From Desulfonatronospira thiodismutans ASO3-1 (GTDB taxonomy: Bacteria; Desulfobacterota; Desulfovibrionia; Desulfovibrionales; Desulfonatronovibrionaceae), in contig NZ_ACJN02000003.1 of the NCBI RefSeq assembly GCF_000174435.1, positions 1 through 64,000 of the forward strand: a DNA stretch of 64,000 nucleotides, read 5' to 3'. The notes beneath the pieces were generated by a model. The model was not told the origin of the DNA, ran no database searches, and saw nothing but the letters and a program-made list of their open reading frames with translations. Of the stretch, positions 2,123-64,000 are shown piece by piece. Position 1 is the first letter of the stretch. Every line of letters begins with the position of its first letter. The position numbers were made by a program, and so were the translations under genes.

Positions 2123-2127
2123 AGGTT

Positions 2128-7143: not shown

Positions 7144-8064
7144 ATGCCCCGCATAGCCCGTTTTATCCGTAGTGACCAAGCCACCGTCTACCACGTCATA
7201 TCCCGTACTGCTCTGTCAGGTCTGCCCATTAAAGACACTGACAAGGATTATCTGTTGGGGCTTATCAAAAGACTGAGCAGGCTTTACTTTGTTGACGTGC
7301 TGGGTTTCGCAGTTATGGGGAATCATTTCCACCTGGTAGCCCGGATGCACCCTGAGGATGAGATTTCCAATTCAGATATCATCAAGAGGTGGCAGAAATA
7401 TTATGGTGACGAAGCCCAGATGCCTACTGACCGGATGGCTGAGGTCAAGAAGAGGCTTTGCAGCCTTGGGGCCTATGTGAAGGACATCAAGCAGAACTTT
7501 ACCAGGTATTACAACAAAAAGCACAGGCGGAAGGGATTTTTCTGGGGTGGCCGGTTTAAGAGTATGATTGTACAGGAAGGCAGTACTCTGGTGAACCTGC
7601 TTGCTTATGTAGACTTAAACCCTATCCGTGCCGGTATTGTTAAGAAACCGGAGAATTACCGCTGGAGTTCACTTGGTTATCATACCCAGACAGGTAATAA
7701 AGACGGTCTGCTGGATATTGATTTCGGGCTCAAGGAATGGAACGAGCTGGACCCCAAAGAGATAGTCCGCAAGTACAGGCAGTTCGTCTATGAAACAGGC
7801 GCAGTGGATGCGGGCAAAGGCAAGACCATTGAAAAAAAAGTTGTGGAGAAGGCCAGGAAAAAGGGCTACAAGATCTCCCGTGTAGAGCGCTTCAGGTACA
7901 GATGCCGGTATTTTACCGATTCCGGGGTTATCGGCGGGAAGGACTTTGTGCAGGAGGTATTTGATCAGGTCAAACACCTGCTGGGGTCCAAGGATGAGCG
8001 GAAATTTACGCCCGTAGGTGGTGTAGAGGGTTTGTACTCTATGAAGAGGTTGGGTGGTTCATAG
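7144..8064 (+). CDS. REP-associated tyrosine transposase (RAYT), type A
   Basis: The complete 306-residue Y1_Tnp/HUH protein starts at ATG 7144 after AAAGGAGG. The metal-binding HUH motif is HFH at 61-63 in VMGNHFHLV. Candidate nucleophile tyrosines lie at 111 and 122-123 in the segment AYVKDIKQNFTRYYNK. Conserved NPIRAGIVKKP and YRWSSLGYH segments follow. The family nicks and joins REP hairpins on single-stranded DNA. This copy is almost identical to the one at 14342-15262 and looks intact. Its downstream flank matches the flank of the RAYT remnant ending at 13178. Confidence 0.9.
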   Translation: MPRIARFIRSDQATVYHVISRTALSGLPIKDTDKDYLLGLIKRLSRLYFVDVLGFAVMGNHFHLVARMHPEDEISNSDIIKRWQKYYGDEAQMPTDRMAEVKKRLCSLGAYVKDIKQNFTRYYNKKHRRKGFFWGGRFKSMIVQEGSTLVNLLAYVDLNPIRAGIVKKPENYRWSSLGYHTQTGNKDGLLDIDFGLKEWNELDPKEIVRKYRQFVYETGAVDAGKGKTIEKKVVEKARKKGYKISRVERFRYRCRYFTDSGVIGGKDFVQEVFDQVKHLLGSKDERKFTPVGGVEGLYSMKRLGGS

Positions 8065-14341: not shown

Positions 14342-15262
14342 ATGCCCCGCATAGCCCGTTTTATCCGTAGTGACCAAGCCACCGTCTACCACGTCATATC
14401 CCGTACTGCTCTGTCAGGTCTGCCCATTAAAGACACTGACAAGGATTATCTGTTGGGGCTTATCAAAAGACTGAGCAGGCTTTACTTTGTTGACGTGCTT
14501 GGGTTTGCGGTCATGGGTAACCATTTCCACCTGGTAGCCCGGATGCACCCTGAGGATGAAATTTCCAACTCAGACATCATCAAGAGGTGGCAGAAATATT
14601 ATGGTGATGAAGCCCAGGTGCCCACAGACCGGATGGTTGAGGTCAAGAAGAGGCTTTGCAGCCTTGGTGCCTATGTGAAGGACATCAAGCAGAACTTTAC
14701 CCGGTATTACAACAAAAAGCACAGGCGACAGGGATTTTTCTGGGGAGGCCGGTTTAAGAGTATGATTGTCCAGGAAGGCAGCACTCTGGTTAATTTGCTG
14801 GCCTATGTGGATTTAAACCCTATCCGTGCTGGAATAGTAAAGAAACCCGAGGATTACCGTTGGAGTTCACTTGGCTACCATACCCAGACCGGGAACAAAG
14901 ACGGTCTGCTGGATATTGATTTCGGGCTCAAGGAATGGAACGAGCTGGACCCCAAAGAGATTGTCCGCAAGTACAGGCAGTTTGTTTACGAGACCGGAGC
15001 AGTAGACGCCGGCAAAGGCAAGACCATTGATCAAAAGGTTGTGGAAAAAGCCAGGAAAAAAGGCTACAAAATATCCAGGGTAGAGCGCTTCAGATACAGA
15101 TGCCGGTATTTTACTGATTCCGGGGTTATCGGCGGAAAGGATTTTGTTCAGGAAGTCTTTGACCAGGTCAAGCATTTACTGGGGTCCAAGGATACAAGGA
15201 AATTTACTCCGGTTGGCGGTGTCGAGGGTTTGTACTCTATGAAGCGCCTGGGGCAGACTTGA
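14342..15262 (+). CDS. REP-associated tyrosine transposase (RAYT), type A, second copy
   Basis: This 306-residue protein is almost identical to the product of 7144-8064, with HFH at 61-63 and intact Tyr-containing helix and NPIRAGIVKKP region. It starts at ATG 14342 after AAAGGAGGTAATTC. The last residues (LGQT) and the downstream flank differ from the first copy, so the conserved unit ends close to the stop codon. Confidence 0.9.
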   Translation: MPRIARFIRSDQATVYHVISRTALSGLPIKDTDKDYLLGLIKRLSRLYFVDVLGFAVMGNHFHLVARMHPEDEISNSDIIKRWQKYYGDEAQVPTDRMVEVKKRLCSLGAYVKDIKQNFTRYYNKKHRRQGFFWGGRFKSMIVQEGSTLVNLLAYVDLNPIRAGIVKKPEDYRWSSLGYHTQTGNKDGLLDIDFGLKEWNELDPKEIVRKYRQFVYETGAVDAGKGKTIDQKVVEKARKKGYKISRVERFRYRCRYFTDSGVIGGKDFVQEVFDQVKHLLGSKDTRKFTPVGGVEGLYSMKRLGQT

Positions 15263-22068: not shown

Positions 22069-22073
22069 AGGTT

Positions 22074-25226: not shown

Positions 25227-25314
25227 GGCCCATATGCAGGCTGAGTCCAAACAAGTGGTACTATATTCCAAGGCCAAAAATTATGTTGCCAGCCCAAAAT
25301 AATTATGCTGCATG

Positions 25315-43200: not shown

Positions 43201-43520
43201 GCACTGGAACCGGCTTTATGATTAGCCCCAGACATATTATGACTAATGCCCACGTGTTGTCGGAAGAAGATTGGCATTCTGATTTGTCTGAACTGAACTC
43301 TGTTGATTTTTACTTGGGTCGAAATGGTGGAACAATAGAGAGTGGGGACAGGTTCTTTAAGTTGACTTTTCTACCCTATTTCGCTAAATTCCTTTCAACC
43401 CAGCAACCACAAGCCTTCATGGAGGTCCAACATGCCCAGAATAGCCAGATTTATACGGGACAATCAGCCCAGCGTATACCATATTGTTTCCAGAACAGCC
43501 CTGCAGGGACTGCCCATTAA
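40260..43520 (+). CDS. Giant acidic modular protein with CARDB, beta-propeller and truncated protease domains
   Basis: Residues 1-~300 are nearly identical to the protein at 35858. A PPC-like beta segment follows (~325-440; LGLGDSLSRQDFVGDDLSRH), then a seven-to-eight-unit PQQ/WD-like beta-propeller (~450-750) built on VAVDHEGYVYSTSxDxTVRK and KIDPDGNEIWSYDGH, then two CARDB-like domains. A trypsin-like domain begins with GTGFMISPRHIMTNAHV (catalytic His). Native sequence ends at ~43343, where a RAYT unit starts at GGGGACA. The last ~60 residues are translated RAYT leader and RAYT codons in a wrong frame. The Asp and Ser of the protease are therefore lost. Confidence 0.75.
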   Translation: MSKGRELTAMLNEQLELGMDPLVKDFMGSRFDSAFFEEDEDVDPLGAQLYLTSWDDNVDFLDIQNLQNDPDFSGYFKSEAEFDVVYTVTAADDGSSLDADSVREEPANSVQFDFEPFPNDGATVRIDNFGSEDQLKTNVDIDDDKYVWDTPESDQIQIGFDWEETPDSYLVYLRGVDEDLVDEVSSAIEAGDSTQKIINLIGQHEDFSNDWLKHEPDQAELSIQSIDVTPEKPEPGEEFTVEVNIEELAGIETENLTVNLAISGTEIDETIEVDSLQGAQASVTFEELVIDEAGDYDFEVTVGADNASKIKQAKDFEITDDGPGDSFVTALDIGELGLGDSLSRQDFVGDDLSRHYYRFELVESAKVDIELLYDYADDGNLFMTLYDSTGVGGVIDVSETYDDNEYIQAELDAGMYYLEVETQGWDHENDYELNLDVLDMDGAYFTINPEAVELHKVWLFDGGAASSVSNLAVDHEGYVYSASLDDTLRKIDPGGNEVWSYDEHNDAVWAVAVDHEGYVYSTSRDKTVRKIDPDGNEIWSYDGHTDYVSGVAVDHEGYVYSTSLDRTVRKIDPDGNEIWSYDGHSTLISGLDVDHDGYVYSTSRHRDGSVHKIDPEGEKVWSYEKDDRAFYDISLAKDGYLYVGGWDYTGGFLSKLDLEGSKDWFLEPDYSNASINSIAVGENDFVYFFQRDLSFSYISKYDPGGSEVWSFKAEDIGIESSITSLVVGPDDLIYIGNNLGEVLKLTQKGNFEDQSVEMGATATFSALIENEGENSGRRDVTLSFVDPAIDWSAEQSLELDAGDSEMLSFVVDSGELGLELGEYELILNTGDETQAANLEVLDPVELSIQSIDIVTEGEVGSSVQVDAIVGHTGGAQEVVFTITQNGTVETVIVDLESDTPYVEDISGVFDNTSDFEPGAVDLEARVVEGAEVESDTKTFGLYEDEKNREFQWQWADTDKPPFDMIGHTIVDHDGLDPGTLGTGTGFMISPRHIMTNAHVLSEEDWHSDLSELNSVDFYLGRNGGTIESGDRFFKLTFLPYFAKFLSTQQPQAFMEVQHAQNSQIYTGQSAQRIPYCFQNSPAGTAH
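43344..43431 (+). repeat. RAYT leader, type B
   Basis: GGGGACAGGTTCTTTAAGTT marks the left limit of the inserted unit, and AACCACAAGCCTTCATGGAG precedes the start codon. The first ~18 bases also occur as a solo motif at 27660. Confidence 0.7.
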
Positions 43521-44352
43521 GGATAAAGACAATGACTTTCTGCTGGGCCTGATCAAAAAGTTCAGTCAATTCTACTTTGTTGATGTGCTGGGATTCGCAC
43601 TTTTAGGCAACCACTTCCACCTGGTAATCCGCATGTATCCAGAGTCTGATCCTACGGATGATGAAATCAAGGAGAGGCTACAGAAATATTATGGAGATGA
43701 GCTTAATGTGACCGGGGTGCTTATATCCGACTACCGCAAGCGCCTGACCAACCTGGGGGCTTATGTGAAGGACATTAAGCAGGGATTTACCAGGTATTTC
43801 AATAAGAAGTATAACCGCAGAGGGTTTTTCTGGGGGGATAGATTCAAGAGTATGATTGTTCAGGACGGGTTAAGCCTGGTTAACCTTCTGGCTTATGTGG
43901 ACCTCAATCCCATCCGGGCAGGTATTGTAAAGAAACCTGAGGATTACCGCTGGTGCTCTTTGGGCTACCATACCCAGACCGGGAACAAAGACGGCCTGCT
44001 GTCCATTGATTTTGGGATGAAGGAATGGAATGAGTTTGATCCCAAGGAGATTGTCCGCAAATACAGGCAGTTTGTTTATGAAACCGGCGCTGTGGATGCG
44101 GGGAAAGGCAAGGTCATGGACAAAAAGATCGTGGAAAAAGCCAGAAAGAAAGGCTACAAGATTTCCAGAGTAGAGCGTTTCAGGTACAGATGCCGGTATT
44201 TTACCGATTCTGGTGTTATCGGCGGCAAGGACTTTGTTCAGGAGGTCTTTGACCAGGTCAAGCACCTCCTGGGTTCCAAGGACGAGCGGAAATTTACTCC
44301 GGTTGGCGGTGTGGAGGGTTTGTATTCTATGAAAAGGTTAGGTGAATCTTGA
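43432..44352 (+). CDS. REP-associated tyrosine transposase (RAYT), type B, second copy
   Basis: The 306-residue protein is almost identical to 25498-26412, with HFH in LLGNHFHLVIRM and an intact Tyr segment. It overlaps the out-of-frame end of the giant protein gene that it interrupts. ATGGAGG lies before ATG 43432. It appears complete. Confidence 0.9.
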   Translation: MPRIARFIRDNQPSVYHIVSRTALQGLPIKDKDNDFLLGLIKKFSQFYFVDVLGFALLGNHFHLVIRMYPESDPTDDEIKERLQKYYGDELNVTGVLISDYRKRLTNLGAYVKDIKQGFTRYFNKKYNRRGFFWGDRFKSMIVQDGLSLVNLLAYVDLNPIRAGIVKKPEDYRWCSLGYHTQTGNKDGLLSIDFGMKEWNEFDPKEIVRKYRQFVYETGAVDAGKGKVMDKKIVEKARKKGYKISRVERFRYRCRYFTDSGVIGGKDFVQEVFDQVKHLLGSKDERKFTPVGGVEGLYSMKRLGES

Positions 44353-50013: not shown

Positions 50014-50719
50014 AAGAGATTCCTCCTTATACACTTTTTCAAGTATAAGGACAGAAAAAAATTTTTTTAAATAATTTGTTCCGCTGGAAGGCATGATGCA
50101 GGCCTGTATATCTTTACCCACCAGAGATAACTATCTGATATTAATTGAAAATTAGAAGGTGTGGCATGCAAAAAATTAATTTGAGGCGGGCTTGAATGCA
50201 GGCATGTCGCAGTTTTTACTTCATCTGGGCGTCTGTCGACACTCTCACTTCGCGCCAGGCCTGGATTTCACGGTTTTCTCTACTCTCAGCGATGCTGATG
50301 TTTTTAAATGGCCAGGCAAACCATGTTTTTCAACATGATGAAGCTGCACATTTACACCAGCCTGCACCGGGATCATGCCTCAGCTTCAACAAAAAAGCGG
50401 CCCGCCGGATCAGCCGGAGGGCCGCTTTTGTTTCTGTCTTTTTAGCAGCGATTAGACGCCTGAACCATCAATCTTCGTAGTAGGCCAGGGGACTGTCCCC
50501 AGCTGAGTAATTACTATGCAGCTTCACTTCATATCTTGTCTGTACTTTTTGTATTCGTGAAGGAAAAGTGTCGCGGGGACTGTCCCCCTGATCGGTACCT
50601 GCCCCCCTGAATTGTTACGAAAAAATAGTGCATACATAATTATTCAGGGAGTCCTCGACGGTGATTACTGTCCTTAGGCAGATTGCGGCATCCCTGAATG
50701 GTTACGTATGAACACCAAC
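50014..50719. other. Intergenic region with BCCT tail duplicate and REP-like pairs
   Basis: The region holds the duplicated 3' end of the BCCT gene and its terminator (50371-50482), two GGGGACTGTCCCC palindromes (50488-50500, 50575-50587) and CCTGAATTGTTACG at about 50605-50619. This is the right part of the MITE seen complete at 63571-63747. A second, partial CCCTGAATGGTTACG follows near 50695. No gene is seen. Confidence 0.6.
50371..50482 (-). repeat. Direct repeat A: BCCT gene tail and terminator
   Basis: These 112 bp match 51417-51529 closely, including the GCGGCCCGCCGG...GGCCGC terminator and the last codons (Y-E-D-stop) of a BCCT-type gene read on the minus strand. The rest of that gene copy is absent. 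Confidence 0.75.
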
Positions 50720-51115
50720 TTAATACCAGTTTTCAACCATGAGCCCTTGTACCCTGCTGAATTCCCGCACATTTCTTGTTACCAGAATCCGGGCATTGGC
50801 CACCGCAGTTGCTGCTATGAGTATGTCATAAGGGCCTATGGGCATGCCTGATTCTTCCAGATCAGCTCTGATCCTGGCGGCCCGTTTGGCTTCATGGGTT
50901 TGGAAAGGTAAAACCACGACCATGCTTAAAAACTGGTCCAGGTTGCTGCGAAGTCTTTCCGGCTGCCTTGACTTGGCAATACCGGTTTCAATCTCGTAAA
51001 CTGTAATACTTGAAACGGTTGTTTCCCCCGGCGCAATTGCCAGCAGACGCTCAGGCACTCTTCCCTGACCTTTAAAAAAATATATCACAGTGTTTGTGTC
51101 CAGAAGATACATCAC
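50720..51115 (-). CDS. vapC: VapC-type PIN-domain toxin
   Basis: The 131-residue PIN protein has the acidic positions Asp in YLLDTNTVIYF, Glu in SSITVYEIETG and Asp in MPIGPYDILIAATA, followed by LVTRNVREF. It overlaps the antitoxin gene by four bases. VapC toxins cleave tRNA or rRNA. The operon lies between two copies of the BCCT-tail repeat. Confidence 0.88.
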   Translation of the reverse strand: MMYLLDTNTVIYFFKGQGRVPERLLAIAPGETTVSSITVYEIETGIAKSRQPERLRSNLDQFLSMVVVLPFQTHEAKRAARIRADLEESGMPIGPYDILIAATAVANARILVTRNVREFSRVQGLMVENWY

Positions 51116-51342
51116 AAGGGCTCCCTGAAAAAATCAGGAGCAAGGTCCTTCCTCAACTCTTCCGCCTCGGGAAAATCATTCCAGGCTCCGGCCAGTCTTT
51201 TGATCTTTTCCGGCCATTCCCTGGAAGTCTGTTCTCTGATCAATGAGGCTATCCACTTGCTTTTAGATATATTGCTGCCTTCCAGAAAAGCCTTGAGCTT
51301 TTGCTCTGTCTCCGGATCAAGATATATAGTCATCTGCCCCAT
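51112..51342 (-). CDS. vapB: Antitoxin of the VapBC-type pair
   Basis: The protein MGQMTIYLDPETEQKLKAFL continues with SNISKSKWIASLIREQ, a ribbon-helix-helix DNA-binding pattern of CopG type. ATG 51342 is taken as start, and ATG 51354 would add four residues. The C-terminal part (KRLAGAWNDFPEAEELRKDL) would bind the toxin. It is translationally coupled to vapC. Confidence 0.8.
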   Translation of the reverse strand: MGQMTIYLDPETEQKLKAFLEGSNISKSKWIASLIREQTSREWPEKIKRLAGAWNDFPEAEELRKDLAPDFFREPL

Positions 51343-51416
51343 GCTGTCCTCCATAACTTAATATATAAGTTAAATTATATGTGTTCCTCCTTGCATGTCA
51401 AGAAAATCCAGCCCAG

Positions 51417-51529
51417 GATCATGCCTCAGCTTCCACAAAAAAAGCGGCCCGCCGGATCAGCCGGCGGGCCGCTTTTGTTTCTGTCTTTTAAGCAGCGATT
51501 AGACGCCTGAATCATCAATCCTCGTAGTA
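51417..51529 (-). repeat. Direct repeat B: BCCT 3' end with terminator
   Basis: This is the counterpart of repeat A (50371-50482) at the real end of the BCCT gene. It contains AAAAGCGGCCCGCCGG/CCGGCGGGCCGCTTTT (about 51438-51476), a near-perfect stem flanked by A and T runs that works as a terminator for the minus-strand BCCT transcript. Confidence 0.8.
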
Positions 51530-53077: not shown

Positions 53078-53348
53078 GCGTACCTCCTGATTAGAAAGAT
53101 TAACTCCTGCTGGCAGTTAAGCTTTTATGCACAGCTGAATACACGTCACAAAGATACTTTGCTATGCAGGCAGGTTGTTCAGCATCCCTGCGAGAAGTCG
53201 ATTCCCTGAGGATGTAGAAACTTTTCCAGGCTCAAAAAATTGGCAGGAATCAAGCAGTAAAGCAAAAAACCTGATAACTAAAAGACGACTGTGTTCATCA
53301 AGATGCCTGCCATACCAAGTCCGGATGTACCCGCCAGGTAATAAAACT

Positions 53349-53693
53349 CTAAATTTTTTTCAGAATCACCCGGTCGTCTTCAACTACCATTTCAAAGGCG
53401 TCTCCGGGTTTAAATCCGGTATACTGGAGCATCTTTTCGGAAAAAATCACTCCATCCTTCTTGTATTTCCACCATCTTCTCTCTTCCAGAGTGGGTGGGT
53501 CCAAAAGCCCTGGGATCTCGTAAAGTTCGTTGTCCTCGTCCTGAAGCATGAGCAACTGCTCATAAAGGCTGTACCTGGAAATCTGCAGATCCTTCATGAT
53601 CGCCTTGGCATCCTTTTTGTCCTTGATTAACTGCCGCAGGCGGTCAGGATCATAATTGTGGGTATAAGTTCCTTTGCGCTTACCCTGTTTCAT
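53349..53693 (-). CDS. AbrB/MazE-domain protein
   Basis: The 114-residue protein starts MKQGKRKGTYTHNYDPDRLR (ATG 53693 after TGGAGGTAGACTT). Residues ~80-114, DGVIFSEKMLQYTGFKPGDA followed by FEMVVEDDRVILKKI, form a swapped-hairpin AbrB-like DNA-binding domain at the C-terminus, unlike most family members, where it is N-terminal. The N-terminal half is helical (LRQLIKDKKDAKAIMKDLQI) and resembles a helix-turn-helix. A transcription regulator is likely. Confidence 0.6.
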   Translation of the reverse strand: MKQGKRKGTYTHNYDPDRLRQLIKDKKDAKAIMKDLQISRYSLYEQLLMLQDEDNELYEIPGLLDPPTLEERRWWKYKKDGVIFSEKMLQYTGFKPGDAFEMVVEDDRVILKKI

Positions 53694-53706
53694 AAGTCTA
53701 CCTCCA

Positions 53707-53800
53707 ATTAGTTTCCATCCGAAAACGGTTCTTTCGGTAAAGAAAACCAATAGCTTTAACATCTGGAAAGAAAGACTTTCCGGATGGAAACCAGTTAGAA
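53707..53800. repeat. Inverted repeat upstream of the AbrB-domain gene
   Basis: GTTTCCATCCG (53711-53721) and CGGATGGAAAC (53781-53791) are perfect complements, extended by AATTA/TTAGAATT outside. The ~90-bp unit lies just upstream of the ribosome site. It may be a MITE-like insertion or an operator. Confidence 0.55.
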
Positions 53801-54118
53801 TTCAGGTTGACAAGTGACAACCCATGTTCAGAAGGGGCATCAATCCTAAGCAGATCTTTGCTGATGCTGCGCCATTTCCGAAAATCCATTACACTGCAAG
53901 TCATCTTGAGCAGATCAAAAATAACCGCAATAATGTTTGAAATAAATTCTAATATGAACTATATTCTTACCAAAAGTCAATATAGTGCAAATAATAACAC
54001 CACCCGGAACACAAACAAAACCCCTGAGACGGCAGAATCAGGAAAATTCAGCAGCAATATTTCAACCCGGTTGCATGCAGAACTCAAAACAATTCAACCA
54101 GGGCGAACTCTTTGCAAT
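53801..54118. promoter_or_regulatory. Divergent promoter region of the AbrB-domain and archease genes
   Basis: The region is AT-rich with TTGACAAGTGACAAC at about 53804-53818 and several TATAGT/TATATT-like boxes near 53950-53985. No gene is recognised. Open frames here only extend archease upstream without family similarity. Confidence 0.4.
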
Positions 54119-54541
54119 ATGAATAACGCTTACTGGAAACACCTGGATCACAGGGCGGATATCGGCATTCAGGGGGTTGGCCCCAGCCTGGAGCAGGCTT
54201 TCGCCCAGGCCGGACTGGCTCTCATGGCGGTTATGTGTGACCTTGAACTTATACACCGTAAAGAATCCAGGATAATAAACCTGGAAGGCCATGACCCGGA
54301 ACTACTGTTTTTCGATTTCCTCAACGAACTGATTTTCCTGGTTTCCGCCGAGGGATTTGCTTACTCCTGGATCGAGGCAGACATCAATGATGGCCGACTG
54401 CGGGCCAGAGTTCTTGGAGAATCCCTGGACAGCCTCAGGCACCAGCCCGAAGTAGAAGTTAAGGGAGCAAGTTTCAACGGGCTGAAGGTGTGGCAGGACA
54501 AAAACGGAAAATATATTGCCACCTGCATTGTTGATGTATAA
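54119..54541 (+). CDS. Archease (RtcB activator)
   Basis: The 140-residue protein starts MNNAYWKHLDHRADIGIQGV (ATG 54119). The family pattern is clear: LDHxADIGI at the N-terminus, HDPELLFFDFLNELIFLVSA in the middle and VEVKGASFNGLKV near the end, finishing IATCIVDV. Archease binds metal through the acidic residues and speeds guanylylation of the RNA ligase RtcB. The next gene is RtcB, which supports the assignment. Longer upstream starts have no family similarity. Confidence 0.9.
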   Translation: MNNAYWKHLDHRADIGIQGVGPSLEQAFAQAGLALMAVMCDLELIHRKESRIINLEGHDPELLFFDFLNELIFLVSAEGFAYSWIEADINDGRLRARVLGESLDSLRHQPEVEVKGASFNGLKVWQDKNGKYIATCIVDV

Positions 54542-54609
54542 AGATTTGACAACCTTCTGGAGTGTATTAGTTTAAAAGATTAACCCGGATATTGTTAAGC
54601 TATACCAAC

Positions 54610-56034
54610 ATGCAAAAGCCTACCAGAGTCTCTTCATATATACATCGCCTGGAACCTGAAGGACCCATGCGTGTGCCAGGCTTCATTTTTGCCGATGACG
54701 AACTCCTGGCGGACATGGAGGGGGACGTCTTCAGGCAGCTGGCCAATGTGGCTACTCTGCCGGGCATAGTTCACGGAGCGCTGGCCATGCCGGACGCCCA
54801 TCTGGGGTACGGTTTCCCCATAGGCGGAGTCGGCGCCTTTGATCCTCACCAGGGGGGTATCGTATCCGCTGGAGGAGTGGGGTTCGACATCGCATGCGGA
54901 GTGCGTACGCTGGTGACAGGAATTCACAAAGACAGAGTCCTGGCTGAAAGAAAAACTTTGGCTGACCTTTTGTATCAGAATGTCCCGGCGGGACTGGGGA
55001 CCAAGAAGGGGCTGAAAATTTCCGGCAGAGATATGGACCGGATGCTGGCCCAGGGGGGCAAATGGGCTGTAGGCAGAGGATACGGAACAAGCTCGGACCT
55101 GAAAAAAACCGAGGAAGGCGGTACAGCTTCCGGGGCGGATCCGCTGGCGGTAAGCGATAAGGCCCGCAAACGCCTGGACCGGGAACTGGGCACACTGGGC
55201 TCGGGAAATCACTATCTGGAAGTCCAGGCCATCCAGGAAATCTTTGACGACAACGCCGCCCAGGCCTTTGGACTGCGCAAGGACGACGTGGTCATAAGCA
55301 TTCATTGCGGTTCCAGGGGGCTGGGGCACCAGGTGGCTACAGAGTATATCAGGCTCATGGTCCAGGAATCAGCCAGGCAGAAGATCAGGCTGCCGGACAG
55401 GGATCTGGCCTGCGCCCCGATTTTTTCCGATACCGGGCAGCAGTATCTGGGGGCCATGCGAGCAGCCATAAATTGCGCCCTGGCCAACCGCCAGATCTTA
55501 AGCCACCTGGCCCGGGAAAGCTTTGAAACTGTCTTTCCCGATGCCCGTATATCCATGCTCTATGATGTCTGCCACAACACCTGCCGGGAAGAGGATCACG
55601 AATTTCAAGGGCGAAGCATCAGGCTCTTCGTACACCGGAAAGGAGCCACAAGGGCCTTTGGCCCCGGACATCCGGATCTGCCTGCCGAGTATGTCCAGGT
55701 GGGGCAGCCGGTGCTCATTGGCGGCAGCATGGGCACTTCTTCCTATATAATGGCCGGAACCTTGGAAGGAATGGGTATAAGTTTTGGATCTGCCTGCCAT
55801 GGAGCAGGCAGAGTAATGAGCCGCAAACAGGCGGTGAAAAAATATCCCGGCCGTCAGGTTATTGACCATTTGCAAAAAATGAATATCGAAGTTAGAAGTC
55901 ATAGCTTCAAGGGGCTTTCCGAAGAAGCCCCGGAAGCATACAAGGATGTAAGCCGTGTGGTGGAGGTAAGCCACAACAGCTCTCTGGCCCGCAAGGTAGC
56001 AAAGCTCAAGCCCATGATCTGCATAAAGGGATAA
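54610..56034 (+). CDS. rtcB: RNA-splicing ligase RtcB
   Basis: The 474-residue protein has the RtcB signature blocks: MPDAHLGYGFPIGGVGAF, GGVGFDIACGVRTL with the metal-binding Asp and Cys, LGSGNHYLEVQ, IHCGSRGLGHQ, and SACHGAGRVMSR with the His that accepts GMP. RtcB joins 2',3'-cyclic phosphate and 5'-OH RNA ends using GTP and Mn. ATG 54610 is taken as start (MQKPTRVSSYIHRLEP). A TTG at 54592 is possible. It sits 68 bp behind archease and 2 bp before the DUF1992 gene, and probably forms one operon. Confidence 0.93.
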   Translation: MQKPTRVSSYIHRLEPEGPMRVPGFIFADDELLADMEGDVFRQLANVATLPGIVHGALAMPDAHLGYGFPIGGVGAFDPHQGGIVSAGGVGFDIACGVRTLVTGIHKDRVLAERKTLADLLYQNVPAGLGTKKGLKISGRDMDRMLAQGGKWAVGRGYGTSSDLKKTEEGGTASGADPLAVSDKARKRLDRELGTLGSGNHYLEVQAIQEIFDDNAAQAFGLRKDDVVISIHCGSRGLGHQVATEYIRLMVQESARQKIRLPDRDLACAPIFSDTGQQYLGAMRAAINCALANRQILSHLARESFETVFPDARISMLYDVCHNTCREEDHEFQGRSIRLFVHRKGATRAFGPGHPDLPAEYVQVGQPVLIGGSMGTSSYIMAGTLEGMGISFGSACHGAGRVMSRKQAVKKYPGRQVIDHLQKMNIEVRSHSFKGLSEEAPEAYKDVSRVVEVSHNSSLARKVAKLKPMICIKG

Positions 56035-56036
56035 CA

Positions 56037-56414
56037 GTGGACATCTTTGCCCAAAAAGCCGAGGAAAGGATTCTGGAGGCCCTGAAGAAGGGAGATTTTG
56101 AAAACCTGCCTGGACGGGGCAAGCCTCTGGATCTTGCTGATGATTCAAACATCCCTTCGGACATGCGAATAGCCTACAAGATCCTTAAAAATGCAGGCTA
56201 CGCTCCACCTGAAGTGGAGCTGCAGAAAGAAATCGCCACCACGAGAGAACTTCTTGAAAACAGCCGGGAAGAAGAAGAGGCTTACCGCCGCATCCAGAAG
56301 CTCAATCTCATGGTCACCAGGATGAACATCATGCGCAAACGGCCCGTGAACCTGGAAGAACACCAGGAATATTACCAGAAAATCGTGAATAAGGTCCAGA
56401 TAAATAAAAAGTAA
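56037..56414 (+). CDS. DUF1992 (DnaJ-homologue C28-type) domain protein
   Basis: The 125-residue protein starts at GTG 56037, 2 bp after rtcB. MDIFAQKAEERILEALKKGD then GDFENLPGRGKPLDL is the DUF1992 consensus, followed by MRIAYKILKNAGYAPPEVEL. The family (YhdN-like) is found in bacteria and as the core of the human DNAJC28, with unknown biochemistry. The rest is coiled coil (EKxREEEEAYRRIQKLN). Confidence 0.8.
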   Translation: MDIFAQKAEERILEALKKGDFENLPGRGKPLDLADDSNIPSDMRIAYKILKNAGYAPPEVELQKEIATTRELLENSREEEEAYRRIQKLNLMVTRMNIMRKRPVNLEEHQEYYQKIVNKVQINKK

Positions 56415-56418
56415 AATC

Positions 56419-56525
56419 CACCCCGCACTTACTTTTTCCGGCTTGTTAATCAGGCCGTCAGCTGGTTGCACATAGCTGTCGCACCTGGAATCGGGAACAG
56501 CTCTGGAAAAAGTAAGTGCGGGGTG
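56419..56525. repeat. 107-bp palindrome with 21-bp perfect arms
   Basis: CACCCCGCACTTACTTTTTC plus C (56419-56439) is the exact complement of the arm at 56505-56525. The 65-bp loop contains AGCTGGTTGC...AGCTGTCGCA. It separates the DUF1992 gene from the FKBP gene. It could act as terminator and may be a MITE-like insertion. Confidence 0.8.
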
Positions 56526-56548
56526 AGAAAAACCAAAGGAGAAGATTG

Positions 56549-56968
56549 ATGTCCAAAGTAGAAGACGGCACCCAGGTAAAAGTACATTACACCGGAAAGC
56601 TCAATGACGGAACGGTGTTTGACAGCTCCCAGGACAAGGAACCCCTGGAATTTACCATGGGCAAAGGTGAGGTTATCCCTGGCATCGAGGATGCTGTCCG
56701 GGATATGGACGAGGGTGAAAGCAAGCAGGTTACCATCGGCAAGGACCAGGCCTATGGGGACAGGCGCGACGACATGATTATTGATGTGCCCAAGGACAAG
56801 TTTCCTGATGAAATCCCCCAGAACGTGGGCCAGCAGCTCATGCTCAAGCACCCTGAAGGCCAGGAGTTCCCGGCGGTAATAGTCGAAGTCAAGGATGAGA
56901 CTGTGACCCTGGACGCCAACCATCCCCTGGCCGGTGAAGACCTGAATTTTGAGATCCAGAGGGTATAG
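56549..56968 (+). CDS. FKBP-type peptidyl-prolyl isomerase (SlyD/FkpB-like)
   Basis: The 139-residue protein starts at ATG 56549 after AAAGGAGAAGATTG. VKVHYTGKLNDGTVFDSSQD and PLEFTMGKGEVIPGIEDAVR are the FKBP active-site strands. The inserted IF domain (QAYGDRRDDMIIDVPKDKFP) is typical of SlyD-type enzymes with chaperone activity. The C-terminal His-rich metal-binding tail of SlyD is absent. A strong terminator follows. Confidence 0.88.
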   Translation: MSKVEDGTQVKVHYTGKLNDGTVFDSSQDKEPLEFTMGKGEVIPGIEDAVRDMDEGESKQVTIGKDQAYGDRRDDMIIDVPKDKFPDEIPQNVGQQLMLKHPEGQEFPAVIVEVKDETVTLDANHPLAGEDLNFEIQRV

Positions 56969-57006
56969 CCCGATGAATGGCTGAAACCAGCCAGGCCACC
57001 CACAAA

Positions 57007-57045
57007 AAAATCCCTGCCGGGGTTACATTTCCCGGCAGGGGAACT
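57007..57045. terminator. Bidirectional terminator after the FKBP gene
   Basis: CCCTGCCGGG and CCCGGCAGGG (about 57011-57040) form a 10-bp stem preceded by AAAAAAA. It ends the rightward operon. The leftward rsh gene ends ~150 bp further on. Confidence 0.8.
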
Positions 57046-57192
57046 TATCCGCAGCGACGTCCCCCGTCTCCTGACTTCTGCTTGCTGCCCTCTTATCTCT
57101 GACTTCTGCTTGCCCCGTGAAACCGGGTTCTCTTTCAGCGTGTTTCACCGGGGTCCTCTGATCCCTGACCTTTGATCCCTGACCTTTGTTCT
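57046..57192. repeat. Short tandem-like repeats between fkbp and rsh
   Basis: CTGACTTCTGCTTGC occurs twice and GATCCCTGACCTTT occurs about twice. These are imperfect intergenic repeats. No gene is seen. Confidence 0.5.
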
Positions 57193-59355
57193 CTATTCTG
57201 CAATGCGTATGACCTCCTGCACTTCGGACAGCTTGCGCAGCTTTTCTATGGTCGAATACAGGTGATTGGAGTCCTGAACCATGATCGTGAAGACCACCTC
57301 GGTTTTTCCGTCCACATTGGACTTGAACGTGCCTGCGTCAATATTGACGTCCTCCTTGGTCAAAAGCTCGCTTATCTTGGCCAGGACGCCCTTGCGGTTT
57401 TGGCACAGCATCTTGATCTTGGCCGGAAAATCCTTGTCCGTCTCCCCGGCCCAGGACACCTCAAGCTTGCGCTCGGGCTCCATTTCCTGGCAGTTGGCGC
57501 AGTCCGCTGTATGAATGGTCACTCCCCTTCCCCGGCTGATGTAGCCCACGATGGGGTCCCCTGGAAGCGGGTTGCAGCACTTGGAAAACCTTACCAGGAC
57601 ATCTCCCACCCCTTTTATCTGTACCCCTTCCTTTTTGGCCACCTGTGGTGCCGGTTTTTCCTCCGGCTTTTCCTGTTGATCGCCTGCTTCCCCCTTGGCC
57701 GGGCGCTGTTCCTCCCTGGGCAGAAGTCTGTTTAAGACCTGCCTGGGAGTAATGCGGGCATACCCCACGGCTGAAAGCAGATCGTCAACCGACTTGTACG
57801 AAAAATCCGCAGCTATGGGCTGGAGCTGTCCCTGCTTTAAGACCTTGTTGATGTTTATGCCCATCTTGCGGCCTTCTTTTTCCAGGACCTCCTTGGCCAG
57901 GGCGATGCTCTGCTGTCGCTCCTCGTTGCGGATCCACTGCTTGACCCTGGTGCGGGCCTTGGCGGTCTTCACTAACCTGAGCCAGTCCCGGCTGGGATGA
58001 CGGTGAGGGTCGGTGATGATCTCTACTGTATCCCCGTTCTTAAGAACGGTATTCAAGGGCACAAGCTTACCGTTGACCTTGGCTCCGGCACAGCGGTCCC
58101 CCACCTCAGTGTGGATCATGTAGGCGAAATCGATGGGTGTGGCCCCTTCTGGCAGTTCCTTGACCTCCCCGCGGGGAGTAAAAACGTAAACCTCGTCCTC
58201 GAAAAGATCAAAGCGCAGTGAGGCCATAAACTCCCTGGGGTCCTTGAGCTCTTCCTGCCAGTCCAGAATCTGCCTGAGCCAGGAAAATCTCTCTGCGTCC
58301 TTGTCCTTGAACCTGTTTTTACCGTCCTCCTTGTAGCGCCAGTGTGAAGCCACCCCGAACTCAGCCATCTTGTGCATTTCCTCGGTGCGGATCTGGATTT
58401 CAATACGTTCCCCGTCAGGACCGATGACAGTGGTATGCAGACTCTGGTACATATTGGCCTTGGGCATGGATATATAATCCTTGAACCGCCCGGGCACCGG
58501 TTTCCAGATGGAGTGTACCAGTCCCAGTACGGCATAGCAGTCCTTTATGCTCTGCACCAGCACCCTGAAAGCGATAATGTCAAAGACCTGGTCCAGGCTC
58601 AGGCCCTGCTGCACCATCTTGTGGTAGATGCTGTAAATATGCTTCATGCGTCCCGAAACGCGCCCCTCAATAGAGTTTTGCTCCAGTATCTCCTCAATGT
58701 TTTGGCAGACCTTCTGAATATATTGTTCGCCGACGACCTTCTGCTTGTTCACCCCTTCCTGGATCTGAAAATAGACGTCCGGCTTCATGTACCGAAGACT
58801 CAGGTCCTCCAGCTGGATCTTGAGCCGATAAAGGCCCAGCCTGTTGGCCAAGGGGGCATATATGTCCATGGTTTCCTGGGCCACGGCCTTTTGCTTGAAT
58901 GAACTCTGGTGCTCCAGGGTCTTCATATTGTGCAGGCGGTCGGCCAGTTTGACCAGGATGACCCGGATGTCGTCGGCCATGGCCAGGATCATCTTGCGGA
59001 TATTCTCGGCCTGGGCCTCCTCCTTGGAGTCAAAGCTCATCTTGCCGATCTTGGTCACACCCTTGACTATCCTGGCTACTTCCTCCCCGAACTGATCCCG
59101 GACCTCCTCCAGGCTGGCCTTGGTGTCCTCCACAGTATCGTGCAGAAGACCTGCAGCAATGGTGTCTGCATCCAGATGCAGGTCGGCAAGCATGTCCGAG
59201 ACTTCCAGGGGATGAGACAGATAGGGCTCTCCGCTCAAGCGTATCTGTCCGGCGTGGGCGGACGCGGAAAACACGTACGCCTTCTGTATAAGGGCCTGGT
59301 CCGGCCCGGAAAGGTAACCGGAAACCTTGTCCAGTATTTCGTTAATTCTTACCAT
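57193..59355 (-). CDS. Bifunctional (p)ppGpp synthetase/hydrolase (RelA/SpoT homologue)
   Basis: The 720-residue Rsh protein has an HD hydrolase domain with LSHPLEVSDMLADLHLDADT and LLHDTVEDT (intact HD residues), a synthetase domain with GRVSGRMKHIYSIYHKM, RFKDYISMPK and IEIQIRTEEM, then a TGS domain (VYVFTPRGEVKELPEGATPI), and a C-terminal ACT domain (RKGVLAKISELLTKEDVNID). Both activities look intact, as in organisms with a single Rsh enzyme. It overlaps mltA by 14 bp. Confidence 0.95.
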   Translation of the reverse strand: MVRINEILDKVSGYLSGPDQALIQKAYVFSASAHAGQIRLSGEPYLSHPLEVSDMLADLHLDADTIAAGLLHDTVEDTKASLEEVRDQFGEEVARIVKGVTKIGKMSFDSKEEAQAENIRKMILAMADDIRVILVKLADRLHNMKTLEHQSSFKQKAVAQETMDIYAPLANRLGLYRLKIQLEDLSLRYMKPDVYFQIQEGVNKQKVVGEQYIQKVCQNIEEILEQNSIEGRVSGRMKHIYSIYHKMVQQGLSLDQVFDIIAFRVLVQSIKDCYAVLGLVHSIWKPVPGRFKDYISMPKANMYQSLHTTVIGPDGERIEIQIRTEEMHKMAEFGVASHWRYKEDGKNRFKDKDAERFSWLRQILDWQEELKDPREFMASLRFDLFEDEVYVFTPRGEVKELPEGATPIDFAYMIHTEVGDRCAGAKVNGKLVPLNTVLKNGDTVEIITDPHRHPSRDWLRLVKTAKARTRVKQWIRNEERQQSIALAKEVLEKEGRKMGININKVLKQGQLQPIAADFSYKSVDDLLSAVGYARITPRQVLNRLLPREEQRPAKGEAGDQQEKPEEKPAPQVAKKEGVQIKGVGDVLVRFSKCCNPLPGDPIVGYISRGRGVTIHTADCANCQEMEPERKLEVSWAGETDKDFPAKIKMLCQNRKGVLAKISELLTKEDVNIDAGTFKSNVDGKTEVVFTIMVQDSNHLYSTIEKLRKLSEVQEVIRIAE

Positions 59356-60586
59356 ATTTGCGAACCATGAAAAAAATATCAGCCCTGTCGCTCATCTTGC
59401 CGGCAATATATTCAGCCCTCTCCCCGAAACCGCAGAAAAAATCCAGATGTCTGCCCCGGATGGCTCCTCCAGTATCCTGAGCGGTTACCGGCCCCTGGAT
59501 GTGGGTCTTTTGACCCTGGTATTCCGGCAGTTCTGCATCCATTATCATGACAGAACCCCAGGGAATAACCTCCGGATCGCTGGCCACGCTGACCCAGGGG
59601 GTAAGTATCTGCCCCGTGGAGCCTCTTGGGCCCTGGTCATCCAGGTGAAAAAATATATAACTGGGATTTTTGGCCATGAGCTCATGCTTTATATCCGGGT
59701 TTTCCTGAAGTACTGCCCGTATGGACTGCATGCTCACCTCGTCCTGCTCAAGAAAGCCAAGATCCACCAGGACCCTGCCCAGGGCAACATACTGATGGCC
59801 GTTTCTATCGGCGTACAGGACATGCTTGTAATCTCCGCCTGGATACTTAAGCCTTCCCGATCCCTGGATGTGCAGAAAAAACAGGTCAATGGGATCCTTA
59901 ACCCAGGCTATCTCCAGGTCGCGTCCGGCCAGGGCGTCTTCCAGTTCTATCTCCCCCCTGCTGTAATAGGGCTTTATTTCGCCGTTCTCCAGCCTGTAAT
60001 AAAGCCTCTGATCTTTCCAGCGGGGGTGAAACTGGCCCAGATCAACACTTTTCAGGTTGTCCGGCCTGCCATAAACCGGATGCCTGAAATCATCATGTTT
60101 CTCCCTGGAAGCCTTAAGCTCTGGCTCGTAATAGCCGGTGAGAAGCACGTCAGGGTTTACCGCGTAAAAATCAAAATAATGTTTAAGCAGTTCAGGGTTG
60201 CGGTCAATATCCGGCAAAAGCTGGATAAAAAGTTCCAGGGTTTCTTTTATATCCGACCAGGTCAGGCAAAGCTCCGGCTGGCAAACCGCCTTTTGGTCGC
60301 CGTCCCTGGTCCTGACGTAATCAAGGCTCTTTTCCAGGGCCGGAGCCAGGTCTTCCCAGCTGTCAAGGCCCTGTTCCTGAAGGTCTTTCTGCACAATCCC
60401 CACGACTTCCCGGCCGTCCACCGGTGCAAACAGGGGTGGAATATCCACCGGCTCGGGTTCCAGAACGGGCTCTTCCGGGGCGCACCCCCAGAGAAAAAGC
60501 ACCAGGAAGGCCGGGATCACCGCCCAGCAAGGATATCCTGCAAGCCAGCCTGTGAATAAATCCCGCGCTTTTCTAAAAACTGGCAT
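59342..60586 (-). CDS. mltA: Membrane-bound lytic murein transglycosylase A
   Basis: The 414-residue protein has an N-terminal lipoprotein signal with a lipobox ending LFLWGC (Cys35). The MltA domain reads DPIDLFFLHIQGSGRLKYPG, and the 3D domain with the catalytic Asp is TAQDTGGAIRGRHLDFFCG. It cleaves peptidoglycan to 1,6-anhydro products at the outer membrane. It overlaps the rsh start by 14 bp and the upstream ARMT1-like gene end by 14 bp, so the four minus-strand genes form one operon. Confidence 0.9.
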   Translation of the reverse strand: MPVFRKARDLFTGWLAGYPCWAVIPAFLVLFLWGCAPEEPVLEPEPVDIPPLFAPVDGREVVGIVQKDLQEQGLDSWEDLAPALEKSLDYVRTRDGDQKAVCQPELCLTWSDIKETLELFIQLLPDIDRNPELLKHYFDFYAVNPDVLLTGYYEPELKASREKHDDFRHPVYGRPDNLKSVDLGQFHPRWKDQRLYYRLENGEIKPYYSRGEIELEDALAGRDLEIAWVKDPIDLFFLHIQGSGRLKYPGGDYKHVLYADRNGHQYVALGRVLVDLGFLEQDEVSMQSIRAVLQENPDIKHELMAKNPSYIFFHLDDQGPRGSTGQILTPWVSVASDPEVIPWGSVMIMDAELPEYQGQKTHIQGPVTAQDTGGAIRGRHLDFFCGFGERAEYIAGKMSDRADIFFMVRKYGKN

Positions 60587-62348
60587 ACTGCTCCGGTTCC
60601 TTTTCTATATTGGCGTCAAAAAACTTGCCCACTCCGTACTCCCTGCGCCTGAAAAACTGTTCCGGGCTGGGTCCGATGATCTGCATCTCCGGATACTTTT
60701 TCTGCACGTCTAAGGCAATGTGCATTTCCTTGGTACAGCCCGTGGAAAAGGTAGCGTCCTTGCCCGCCCAGACAGGCGGGACACGCTCACCCATAAGCTC
60801 AAAGCTCTTTTCAATGTCGCGCACACTCTGAAATCTCCAGACATCTATGAGGCCGCTTCGCTGCACGATCTCCCACATGTACATCAGGTCGTCTCCATCC
60901 ATACCCTGCTCGAAATGTTCGGCCGGATTGATGATGAAAGTACCGGACATACGGCTGCGAATATAGTCCACAAAGGTATTGAGGACCCTGAGGGCGGTCC
61001 TGGTCTGTCCAGGTATGCTTCCGATGATGGCGCTGTAGAACAGCACCCTCTGCCCCTGCCTCCTGACTTCAGCCATCTGCTTCTTGATGTTTTCCGCCTT
61101 GGCCAGGATCTCCTTTTCGGTAATTTTGCGCACCCTTGAACTTTTGGACTTGAATTCGAACTTCACCTCATAATCTTCATCCCTGAACAGGCAGAGAATA
61201 TCGCGGGTAAAAGCACAAGAGTTCTGGATAAGCCTGCGATAGTTTCCCAGGCCCTTGGCAATCACCAGGTCAGATTCTTTCCAGGCCCGGGAGAAGGTGA
61301 CACTGGTACGGTAGAGGTTAAGTCTCTCCCTGCTGCCGTCGGAGATGACCACCAGGTTGTTTTCCCTTTGTTTTTTCAGAAAATCATTTTTGGATGCCTG
61401 GCTCTCCTCCAGGAAGCTGGCTTCACTGAGCAGATGAGCCAGCACACTGTCTGCATAGCAATCCCAGAGAGTCGGGTACTCGTAGTAGAATCCCTCCTTC
61501 AGGGCCAGGGTCACCTTGTGTCCCTGGCGGATGAGATTTTTTATCACCTGCATATCATAGACCAGCCCTCCGCTCTGGCTGGGGAGATAGAGTATCTTGA
61601 TCCGGTATACGTTTTCCGGGCCGAAAAGACTGGTCATTACCTCGCGGAAGTCCTGCCAGCTTCGGCTCAGCTCCTGCTCTATCTCCTGCTGGTCCGGGGC
61701 GAAATCCTCTTCTTGCCAGATGCTGTCCCATGTAGACAGGCAGAAAAAACGCTTGAGTTCCAGCAGATCCAGCTCCCAGCGCAGGTCCTGTATCTTCTCG
61801 CAGCTCATGGTGGAACTGGGACAGGAACTTATAAACCTGAAAAATCCGGGGGTGTGCATGAACTCCAGAGCTCTGCGGTTGTAGGTGCATTTGCGCTCCC
61901 GGTAAGGATCCTGCAGGGTGTTCTGACTGAGAAAAATATCCAGCATCCTTTTGTGCAGCCTGGAAGGTATCATGAAAGGCGACCTGAGCACCTTGCCCAG
62001 AATATGCTTGCACAGGGAGAGGACCTTCTTTTTGACGAAATCGTCGCTGGAATAGTTTCTAATGAGAAAAATCAGCTTCTTCCAGGTCTGCAGGTATTCT
62101 TTTTTTAGATCCGGGCTCATCCTGGTCTGCAGAAGGTTGGCGAACATCCAGTCCGTGCATGGAGCGAAAAGCTGGCCTTCGTCGATGTCCACCATGAACC
62201 GCAGCTGTTCAGCTGAAGCGTTGACCCTGGGATTGACCAGGTGCTCGATATTGTTTTCCAGCATGAAATGCAGGAGCCAGGCATCCAGGTGCGGATCCTG
62301 GCCGTAATATACATTGGAAACCGATGAAATGTGCGGCAGCCTTGCCAA
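60573..62348 (-). CDS. ARMT1-like (DUF89-related) protein
   Basis: This is a 591-residue cytoplasmic protein without membrane segments. The C-terminal half shows the metal-dependent ARMT1/DUF89 fold motifs: ILYLPSQSGGLVYDMQVIKN, VVISDGSRER and SDLVIAKGLGNYRRLIQNS (Lys-Gly-x-Gly-Asn-Tyr/Phe). DUF89 proteins are metabolite damage-control phosphatases. The N-terminal ~250 residues are unassigned. The position between NAD kinase and MltA suggests a housekeeping role, but a substrate cannot be named. Confidence 0.6.
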   Translation of the reverse strand: MARLPHISSVSNVYYGQDPHLDAWLLHFMLENNIEHLVNPRVNASAEQLRFMVDIDEGQLFAPCTDWMFANLLQTRMSPDLKKEYLQTWKKLIFLIRNYSSDDFVKKKVLSLCKHILGKVLRSPFMIPSRLHKRMLDIFLSQNTLQDPYRERKCTYNRRALEFMHTPGFFRFISSCPSSTMSCEKIQDLRWELDLLELKRFFCLSTWDSIWQEEDFAPDQQEIEQELSRSWQDFREVMTSLFGPENVYRIKILYLPSQSGGLVYDMQVIKNLIRQGHKVTLALKEGFYYEYPTLWDCYADSVLAHLLSEASFLEESQASKNDFLKKQRENNLVVISDGSRERLNLYRTSVTFSRAWKESDLVIAKGLGNYRRLIQNSCAFTRDILCLFRDEDYEVKFEFKSKSSRVRKITEKEILAKAENIKKQMAEVRRQGQRVLFYSAIIGSIPGQTRTALRVLNTFVDYIRSRMSGTFIINPAEHFEQGMDGDDLMYMWEIVQRSGLIDVWRFQSVRDIEKSFELMGERVPPVWAGKDATFSTGCTKEMHIALDVQKKYPEMQIIGPSPEQFFRRREYGVGKFFDANIEKEPEQYASF

Positions 62349-62350
62349 CT

Positions 62351-63193
62351 CTACCCCCTGATAAAAAACTTTTTATACCTGAGCTTGTTTATAAAACCCT
62401 CATCGCGGCACATGAGAAGCTGCAGGTCCACATGATATCTTTTGACTCTCAGCTCATCACCTGGTTTTAGGACAAAACCGGTCTGTCCGTCTACAGTCAG
62501 GTAGGCTTCCTGGGTGGAGTTGCCGATGCGCAGCAGTATGGACTCCGAGGCCGGCATGACCATGGGCTTGAAATCGTGCAGGAAAACGCATACCGGGGTC
62601 AGGATCATTGCCTGCATTTCCGGGTGGACCAGGGGGCCTCCGGCGGAGATACAGTAAGCTGTGGAGCCTGTGGGAGTGGAGACAATGAGGCCGTCTGCCC
62701 GTATGGATTCAAGGGCGCCCTGGGATGACTCCAGGTCCAGGGAGATTATCCTGGCCAGTTCCCCCCGGCTGACCACCAGTTCGTTGACGGCCACCCCGGT
62801 ATCCCTCTTGCGTCCTCCACGGAAAATGGAGTACTCCAGCAGCATCCTGCGCGAGATCCGGCCGCCGGATTCCAGGACCATGCTCAGTTGCTCCTTCCAG
62901 GTCAGGGGGGATACCTCGGCCAGAAACCCCACTTTGCCCAGGTTGATCCCCAGAAAGGGCACCTGCCAGTCCAGCAGGGTGCGCACCACGCTCAGCATGG
63001 TCCCATCCCCGCCCAGGACCAGGATAAGATCAGGGGTGTTCCAGGGCAGGTCTTCCATGTCCTTTTCATAAGGAAAGGCGGCCATGCAGGAACTGCAGTT
63101 TCTTTTTTCCATCCAGGCCATGATCTCCTGGGCCATGTTCCTGGCGCCTCTGCTTTCCATTTTGGTGGCGAGTAAAATTTTGTCAATACTCAT
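62351..63193 (-). CDS. nadK: NAD kinase
   Basis: The 280-residue protein has LILVLGGDGTMLSVVRTLLD (the GGDG motif), GINLGKVGFLAE, AVNELVVSRG and GLIVSTPTGSTAYCISAGGP, the full NAD kinase set. It phosphorylates NAD to NADP using ATP or polyphosphate. It starts MSIDKILLATKMESRGARN and ends 2 bp before the ARMT1-like gene, heading the minus-strand operon. Confidence 0.95.
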   Translation of the reverse strand: MSIDKILLATKMESRGARNMAQEIMAWMEKRNCSSCMAAFPYEKDMEDLPWNTPDLILVLGGDGTMLSVVRTLLDWQVPFLGINLGKVGFLAEVSPLTWKEQLSMVLESGGRISRRMLLEYSIFRGGRKRDTGVAVNELVVSRGELARIISLDLESSQGALESIRADGLIVSTPTGSTAYCISAGGPLVHPEMQAMILTPVCVFLHDFKPMVMPASESILLRIGNSTQEAYLTVDGQTGFVLKPGDELRVKRYHVDLQLLMCRDEGFINKLRYKKFFIRG

Positions 63194-63570
63194 ATTGTGA
63201 GGTTGTGCATGGTTAGAGGTTCATGAATAGCGATACTCCGGCTGGACAGATTGGACCGATAAAAAAAACACGGCAACTGATAAACCGTAACCGAGGCAAA
63301 CCTGTCGGTAACCGTCCACATGGCCCCTGCAGCGGGCAAAGTATGTGTTGTAGACAATATCCTGGAATGCTTCAAGGATAAGTTATACAGACGGAAGCAG
63401 GGATTAAATTGAATCATTCAGGAATCTGGAATTGAGGTATTGGGGATCAAGGAATCCAGGGATCAAGAGACCGCTTTAAAAACCGGCAGTAGTTCATGCA
63501 GACTTAATCTCTGGCCCGGCTCTGGTAATCTCCATGAAAAAAAATATCCTGCAGACAATACCCGTTGAGT
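63194..63570. promoter_or_regulatory. Upstream region of the nadK operon
   Basis: These 377 bp are non-coding and contain the promoter of nadK reading leftwards. A minus-strand open frame exists here but has no ribosome site or family similarity. No conserved RNA motif was recognised. Confidence 0.4.
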
Positions 63571-63747
63571 CGTAAGCATTCAGGGGGTACTCAGTTTTAG
63601 TCCCTGGCACCAGGCTTGGGGACTGTCCCCCGCTAAGCACTAACTGAGCAGGTTCACACAATTTCGCGTTTGTCAGGTTATTTTGTGCAGTAGAGGTGTC
63701 GCGGGGACTGTCCCCTGGCCGGTTCCGGCACCCCCTGAATGCTTACG
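63571..63747. mobile_element. 177-bp MITE-like element with 17-bp terminal inverted repeats
   Basis: CGTAAGCATTCAGGGGG (63571-63587) is the exact complement of CCCCCTGAATGCTTACG (63731-63747). Inside are two GGGGACTGTCCCC palindromes (63618-63630, 63703-63715), the REP-like core also seen in RAYT leaders. TTGAG occurs just outside each end. A left-truncated copy lies at 50488-50620. Confidence 0.7.
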
Positions 63748-63879
63748 TTGAGCCTAACCAGTTGAAATAAGATGTCTTTCTCAGTCCCTCAACAAAGCGC
63801 CCTGAAAAGGAAAAAAAAGAGGTTTTTTTCTAAAGCTATTTTATAATTTGCCGATACACATAAATAGAAGAGGCTAAAT
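63748..63879 (+). promoter_or_regulatory. Promoter region of the gene at the right window edge
   Basis: TTATAAT at about 63839-63845 is a plausible -10 box with a T-rich -35 region. GAGG at 63869-63872 is the ribosome site. Confidence 0.45.
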
Positions 63880-64000
63880 ATGACAATTAATCAGTCCCTG
63901 GTAAAAAACATGTTTCAAAACTATGATCGCCAGCTGGTCAACGGGCGTAAACTCTCCCGGCTGTCCAGATACCTGCGTGATCCCCAGGGAGAAGACCCAC
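63880..64000 (+). CDS. Unidentified protein, N-terminal part (runs off the window)
   Basis: ATG 63880 follows GAAGAGGCTAAAT. The 40 visible residues (MTINQSLVKNMFQNYDRQLV, then NGRKLSRLSRYLRDPQG) are basic and probably helical. Too little is present to assign a family. The good ribosome site and promoter suggest a real gene. Confidence 0.6.
   Translation, partial: MTINQSLVKNMFQNYDRQLVNGRKLSRLSRYLRDPQGEDP

Follow-up and report, generated by a model that had tools for sequence, protein, structure and literature searches.

IS66-family insertion sequences are described in the excerpted text of PMC11946415 as having inverted repeats that begin with GTAAGCG and direct repeats of 8 bp, and the IS66 row of a table in the available part of PMC3281130 likewise supports both values. 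REPs carry a tetranucleotide foot that is mostly GTAG, according to the portion of PMC8266576 consulted. We analysed a stretch of 64,000 nucleotides of Desulfonatronospira thiodismutans ASO3-1 (contig NZ_ACJN02000003.1, positions 1 to 64,000; hereafter the window), near the end of which lies a short repeat with GTAA termini. We use MITE as a structural term. The following features belong to the element and to its relatives in the window.

63572..63746, + strand: MITE proper, two-palindrome class, 175 bp, with a pair of terminal inverted repeats (TIRs) and a 7/8 target duplication; its nearest copies elsewhere are 95-99% identical over the matched stretches
63564..63571: left target-site duplication GTTGAGTC, a 7/8 match to 63747-63754
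63747..63754: right target-site duplication GTTGAGCC, pairing with 63564-63571 at 7/8
63572..63588, + strand: left TIR GTAAGCATTCAGGGGGT, a perfect inverted repeat with an IS66-like GTAA end
63730..63746, - strand: right TIR, a perfect inverted repeat with the left TIR
63618..63630: palindrome 1, an exact match to GGGGACTGTCCCC
63703..63715: palindrome 2, an exact match to GGGGACTGTCCCC, 85 bp downstream of palindrome 1
50488..50618, + strand: second MITE copy, left end lost, both palindromes and the right TIR present
50636..50705: degenerate palindrome-less relative of ~70 bp with the same arms (83% complementary; compare the short class below)

The element at 63572-63746 is a real MITE and one of a large family. 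A reading made from the sequence alone (the sequence-only reading) had described a 177-bp MITE with perfect 17-bp terminal repeats and two internal palindromes. The repeats and both palindromes were recovered exactly as described, and the status of MITE is strongly supported by the TIRs, the 8-bp duplications, the high copy number and the empty sites. The length was not upheld. The inverted ends are perfect over 18 bp if the outermost base on each side is included (63571-63588 against 63730-63747), but the C at 63571 and the G at 63747 belong to the target site and lie outside the mobile unit, which is 175 bp with perfect TIRs of 17 bp and no ORF of at least 100 aa. Folded alone, a strand of the MITE forms a single long hairpin, with one palindrome paired to the other (z -5.83, partly from the TIRs). 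The truncated copy that had been placed near 50488-50620 is present, with palindromes at 50488-50500 and 50575-50587 and a right end at 50603-50618, and the palindrome-less relative adjoins it on its far side. Searching the window for GGGGACTGTCCCC with up to two mismatches gave 11 matches against 1.79 expected; the two MITE copies, scored on each strand, account for eight of these, and the two that lie upstream of RAYT genes are within chance. The TIR pattern with up to three mismatches gave four matches against 0.12 expected. No Rfam family matched 50000-64000 of the window at gathering score, and the MITE had no match in a plasmid and phage comparison.

The genome-wide copy search that the sequence-only reading had proposed was performed on the 4,107,394 bases (5 contigs) of the genome. 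It returned 175 exact palindromes and 195 exact GTAANCATTCAGGGGG ends (101 + 94), with none of either in the read-backwards controls. Given that 126 of the 220 ends in the 110 end pairs described below are exact, the genome would hold ~170 elements, which is a rough inference and no count. A scan of genome contigs for end plus palindrome yielded 73 stretches. Their titles nearly all read Desulfonatronospira sp., and four go under other names. One of these four, titled Candidatus Nealsonbacteria (L236, PWGJ01000001.1), is 99.96% identical to this genome over 5,001 bases and is probably a misplaced Desulfonatronospira contig; L245, which has Desulfonatronospira in its title, shows 99.85% identity over 4,683 bases. 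The exact end pattern matched in 10 of 247 genomes of the order Desulfovibrionales and in 2 of 395 of the phylum. One such match, in G146, sits in an apparent coding stretch and was set aside as probably due to chance. The same ends and 8/8 duplications, around different interiors, recur in L168 (192 bp) and L170 (364 bp), which come from a different family of the order.

Target duplications were scored at inverted ends no more than 330 bp apart. The stretches examined cover 536 kb out of the 4.1 Mb of the genome and were chosen around 98 end matches, eight additional loci from BLAST and, on contig C1, 20 regions with palindromes. The consensus terminus is GTAACCATTCAGGGGG, which starts with GTAA. 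Direct repeats of 8 bp were perfect at 53 of the 110 end pairs, 7/8 at 18 and poorer at 39; 71 of 110 thus reached at least 7/8, compared to a mean of 0.76 in shuffled pairings, and none of the 110 had a perfect 9-bp repeat. Part of this set was drawn from regions picked by BLAST or palindromes, and among the 89 pairs picked by TIR alone, 58 reached at least 7/8, 41 of them perfect. Empty sites were found in sister contigs. Among the matches listed, the site corresponding to C3:179019 holds one 8-mer, GATTTCAT, in L264 (84% over 592 bp), that corresponding to C3:451823 holds one 8-mer, GCTTATTC, in L198 (97% over 425 bp), and C3:621009 has a near match to an empty site. MITE insertion sites in L215, L243 and other Desulfonatronospira contigs also show at least two other dispersed repeats that are palindromic, CTTTTGCCG...CGGCAAAAGAGCC and GCACTCCGGGACCC....

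The elements of Desulfonatronospira fall into size classes with common arms: ~60-80 bp without a palindrome, ~90 bp with one, and ~175 bp with two, ~85 bp apart. The ~90-bp class has the structure expected from a deletion between the direct palindromes of 13 bp and may have arisen in this way. Another palindrome, CACGCC(A/T)(G/C)(A/T)GGCGTG, was counted 12 times in the segments analysed, seven times inside elements and five times beside remnants, indicating a modular family. A second MITE subfamily, 299-344 bp long (G000 C4:71965-72263 and C2:640700-641043; L181), shares the ends and duplications but has a hairpin-rich interior of its own. The junctions of short elements, read by eye and without statistics, join TGGC to CGG and AGGC to A; left flanks of GTCCCCGC are seen at C4:105695 and C3:248243, and TTAC is joined to GCGGGGAC at C1:830165 and C2:425452. 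We do not claim the palindrome as an insertion hotspot, as a strict search gave just C4:105695 in this genome and nothing in the 73 named stretches.

Conservation was measured on 51 own-genome copies of 140-200 bp with duplications of at least 7/8. The palindromes diverged from the consensus by 1.9% and the TIRs by 3.5%, compared with 20.5% for the spacer and 22.4% for the arms, so that the spacer diverges about ten times more than the GGGGACTGTCCCC palindromes; the G/C columns of the spacer diverged by 25.7%. Of 102 palindromes in these copies, 79 were perfect and 23 had one mismatch, and the spacing between palindrome centres was 83-88 in 44 of the 51. As a check for bias, 40 copies of two-palindrome size picked by their ends alone gave 2.3%, 3.9%, 21.8% and 22.3% for the same four regions. 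The conservation of the palindromes is real, the same result being obtained in the set chosen by TIR. Perfect duplications nonetheless also flank copies of ~60-80 bp that have no palindrome (for example C1:529944, C1:1077686 and C3:880448), and two near-identical 63-bp copies lie at different sites (C1:681610 and C3:246035, 7/8 each). Since palindrome-free copies duplicate their targets, transposition does not require the palindromes. Something keeps them, dispensable as they are for movement.

The ends point to the type of enzyme involved. The MITE is probably mobilised in trans by a DDE transposase of IS66-family type (we put this at roughly 0.8), a sequence-based assignment made because of its GTAA ends and the 8-bp length of its duplications. 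Such a transposase would recognise the ~16-bp GTAA(C/G)CATTCAGGGGG ends and join them to target strands cut 8 bp apart, giving the 8-bp duplications. It would belong to the IS66 family itself, and the partner may have been lost, may lie outside the sample, or may be a resident GTAAGC-ended IS66 acting on related GTAAGC ends. In the resident IS66 (L033, L302) the ends are GTAAGCGTCC and the duplication is 8 bp long. Duplications of 8 bp also accompany IS66s from other genomes of the order, with GTAAC and GTAAGCG as their ends (L162, L266), and the ends of the resident IS66b are GTGT. PF03050 gave 16 rows in this genome, four across 17 genomes of the genus and family, and seven (one a repeat) across a 15-genome set that overlaps the 17 by one; none of these rows belonged to an IS66 with the exact MITE ends. 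At its right end the resident IS66 agrees with the MITE terminus at just 15 of 20 bases, at its left end at fewer, and IS66 is undetected in the MITE-bearing draft G001. No ORF-sized element bounded by MITE ends was present in the segments analysed (TIR pairs up to 9 kb), and no transposase lay between MITE-type ends in the other loci scanned (pairs 400-5000 bp apart, L291 of G567 included). The resident IS66, present in nine near-identical copies, may itself move the youngest GTAAGC subfamily, the window copy included, and we regard this as possible though doubtful. It is the sole GTAA-ended IS66 found in this genome, its copies are mutually 99.2-99.7% identical, and it has GTAAGC in common with the window subfamily, which shares 15 of 20 end bases with its right end. 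However, the MITE ends continue as CATTCAGGGGG unlike those of the resident IS66, and G006 has 172 MITE ends but one PF03050 row, the ends of which are GTAACTTCTCAATAG. That another DDE family with 8-bp duplications made the ends appears quite improbable. The failure to find a transposase with exact MITE ends in the genomes and segments searched would fit such a source, but to our knowledge the other families with 8-bp duplications have different ends. GTAA termini with 8-bp duplications are seen in IS66s of the order and are reported for IS66 in the available text of PMC11946415.

The sequence-only reading had instead suggested that the element is mobilised by the RAYTs of the window, that is, that the palindromes are REPs and the unit a REPIN moved as single-stranded DNA. 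The following genes were the proposed partners.

7144..8064, + strand: Y1_Tnp (RAYT/IS200-like) gene, PF01797, not part of the element; its flank hairpin differs
14342..15262, + strand: second Y1_Tnp copy, PF01797, not part of the element, 91.5% identical to the first
43432..44352, + strand: third Y1_Tnp copy, PF01797, not part of the element

Each of the three genes encodes 306 aa, and PF01797 confirmed all of them. RAYT-like Y1_Tnp copies at 7047-8046, 14243-15244, 25470-26384 and 43404-44344 are 77-92% identical with a sharp left end. The window also holds a repeated 4.3-kb block (1152-5472 and 21098-25418, 99.5% identity) that encodes three overlapping tyrosine recombinases and resembles a RIT (recombinase-in-trio) element. 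Mobilisation by RAYTs is very improbable, despite RAYT-like genes being plentiful in this genome, a GGGGACAGTCTCT hairpin lying upstream in five of seven compared copies of the 306-312-aa RAYT-like group, and the two strongly conserved palindromes standing ~85 bp apart with inverted flanks, as in the REP doublets described in the consulted part of PMC3116915. What moves is delimited by TIRs that lie 30-46 bp beyond the palindromes and come with 8-bp duplications, and the palindrome-free copies also duplicate their targets. The palindromes are nearly confined to MITEs: of 82 exact ones on C1, 68 lie between two MITE ends, nine by one and five by none, and some of those five adjoin MITE-like remnants, suggesting that the palindrome is not dispersed by itself. 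The GTAG foot is missing, with GCCT, GCCA or CCCT before the first palindrome and TCGC before the second. The hairpin flanking the RAYTs is GAAGAAGGGGACAGTCTCTTCTTG, at the left end only and with two mismatches in 13 to the MITE palindrome, and near matches of this type occur at chance frequency in the window. The ends, the duplications, the RAYT flanks and the missing foot together led us to reject the RAYT/REPIN explanation for the mobility of the element. The sequence-only reading had named ends explained by another transposase as evidence against itself; GTAA ends and 8-bp duplications that fit IS66 largely provide this, the exact partner not having been found. It had also named elements in genomes without a RAYT, and these exist in the drafts G001 (seven exact ends, no Y1_Tnp) and G003 (one and none), an observation that does not discriminate because IS66 is undetected there too, G001 being an 82% complete draft. 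The comparison it suggested of RAYT number with element number gave Y1_Tnp rows and palindromes of 31/175 in G000, 4/213 in G006, 10/6 in G010, 4/1 in G012 and 2/0 in G009, where rows are domain matches and some genes yield two. The contrast between G006 and G012 at four rows each speaks against a RAYT partner, but across genomes the counts do not separate the hypotheses because IS-rich genomes have more of everything.

Movement by an IS66-type transposase leaves the palindromes to be accounted for. In a non-coding element they are more conserved than the TIRs, raising the question of which protein reads GGGGACTGTCCCC and whether it aids spread or host tolerance. Our guess is that they form a putative sequence-specific protein site that helps two-palindrome copies to spread or to be tolerated. 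A bolder version, which we consider unlikely, is a two-layer parasite: an IS66-type MITE with the constrained palindrome pair as a second module, whose putative reader would be a host factor or a Y1/RAYT-type enzyme. If true, two systems would select on one element.

Collectively, these results correct a plausible RAYT/REPIN story and reveal a clean, high-copy MITE family of IS66 type, marked by target duplications and empty sites, in a soda-lake sulfate reducer whose genus has been little studied. The MITE family with IS66-type ends is new; neither an IS66-derived MITE nor repeats of Desulfonatronospira were recognised in the excerpts of the literature consulted, ISfinder lying outside them. 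Compared to the REPINs and REP doublets of the available parts of PMC3116915 and PMC8266576, the family is alike in its two conserved hairpin-forming palindromes, its high copy number and the RAYT-like genes in the genome. In contrast to them, it has outer TIRs and 8-bp duplications and lacks the GTAG foot, its palindromes are almost never free of the MITE, and its palindrome-free copies have duplications. The RAYT-like genes of the window resemble mobile IS200-type units more than the single-copy RAYTs of the consulted portion of PMC3116915. With IS66-family insertion sequences and their non-autonomous derivatives the MITE shares GTAA ends and 8-bp target duplications, whereas it has no transposase genes, its ends continue as CATTCAGGGGG, and no full-length partner with these ends was found. 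MITECca01, with 169 copies and IS982 as its parent in the accessible text of PMC9769881, is likewise a short, high-copy derivative with TIRs. It belongs to another IS family and its parent is present, whereas that of the Desulfonatronospira MITE was not found, and the latter is distinguished by its constrained internal palindromes.
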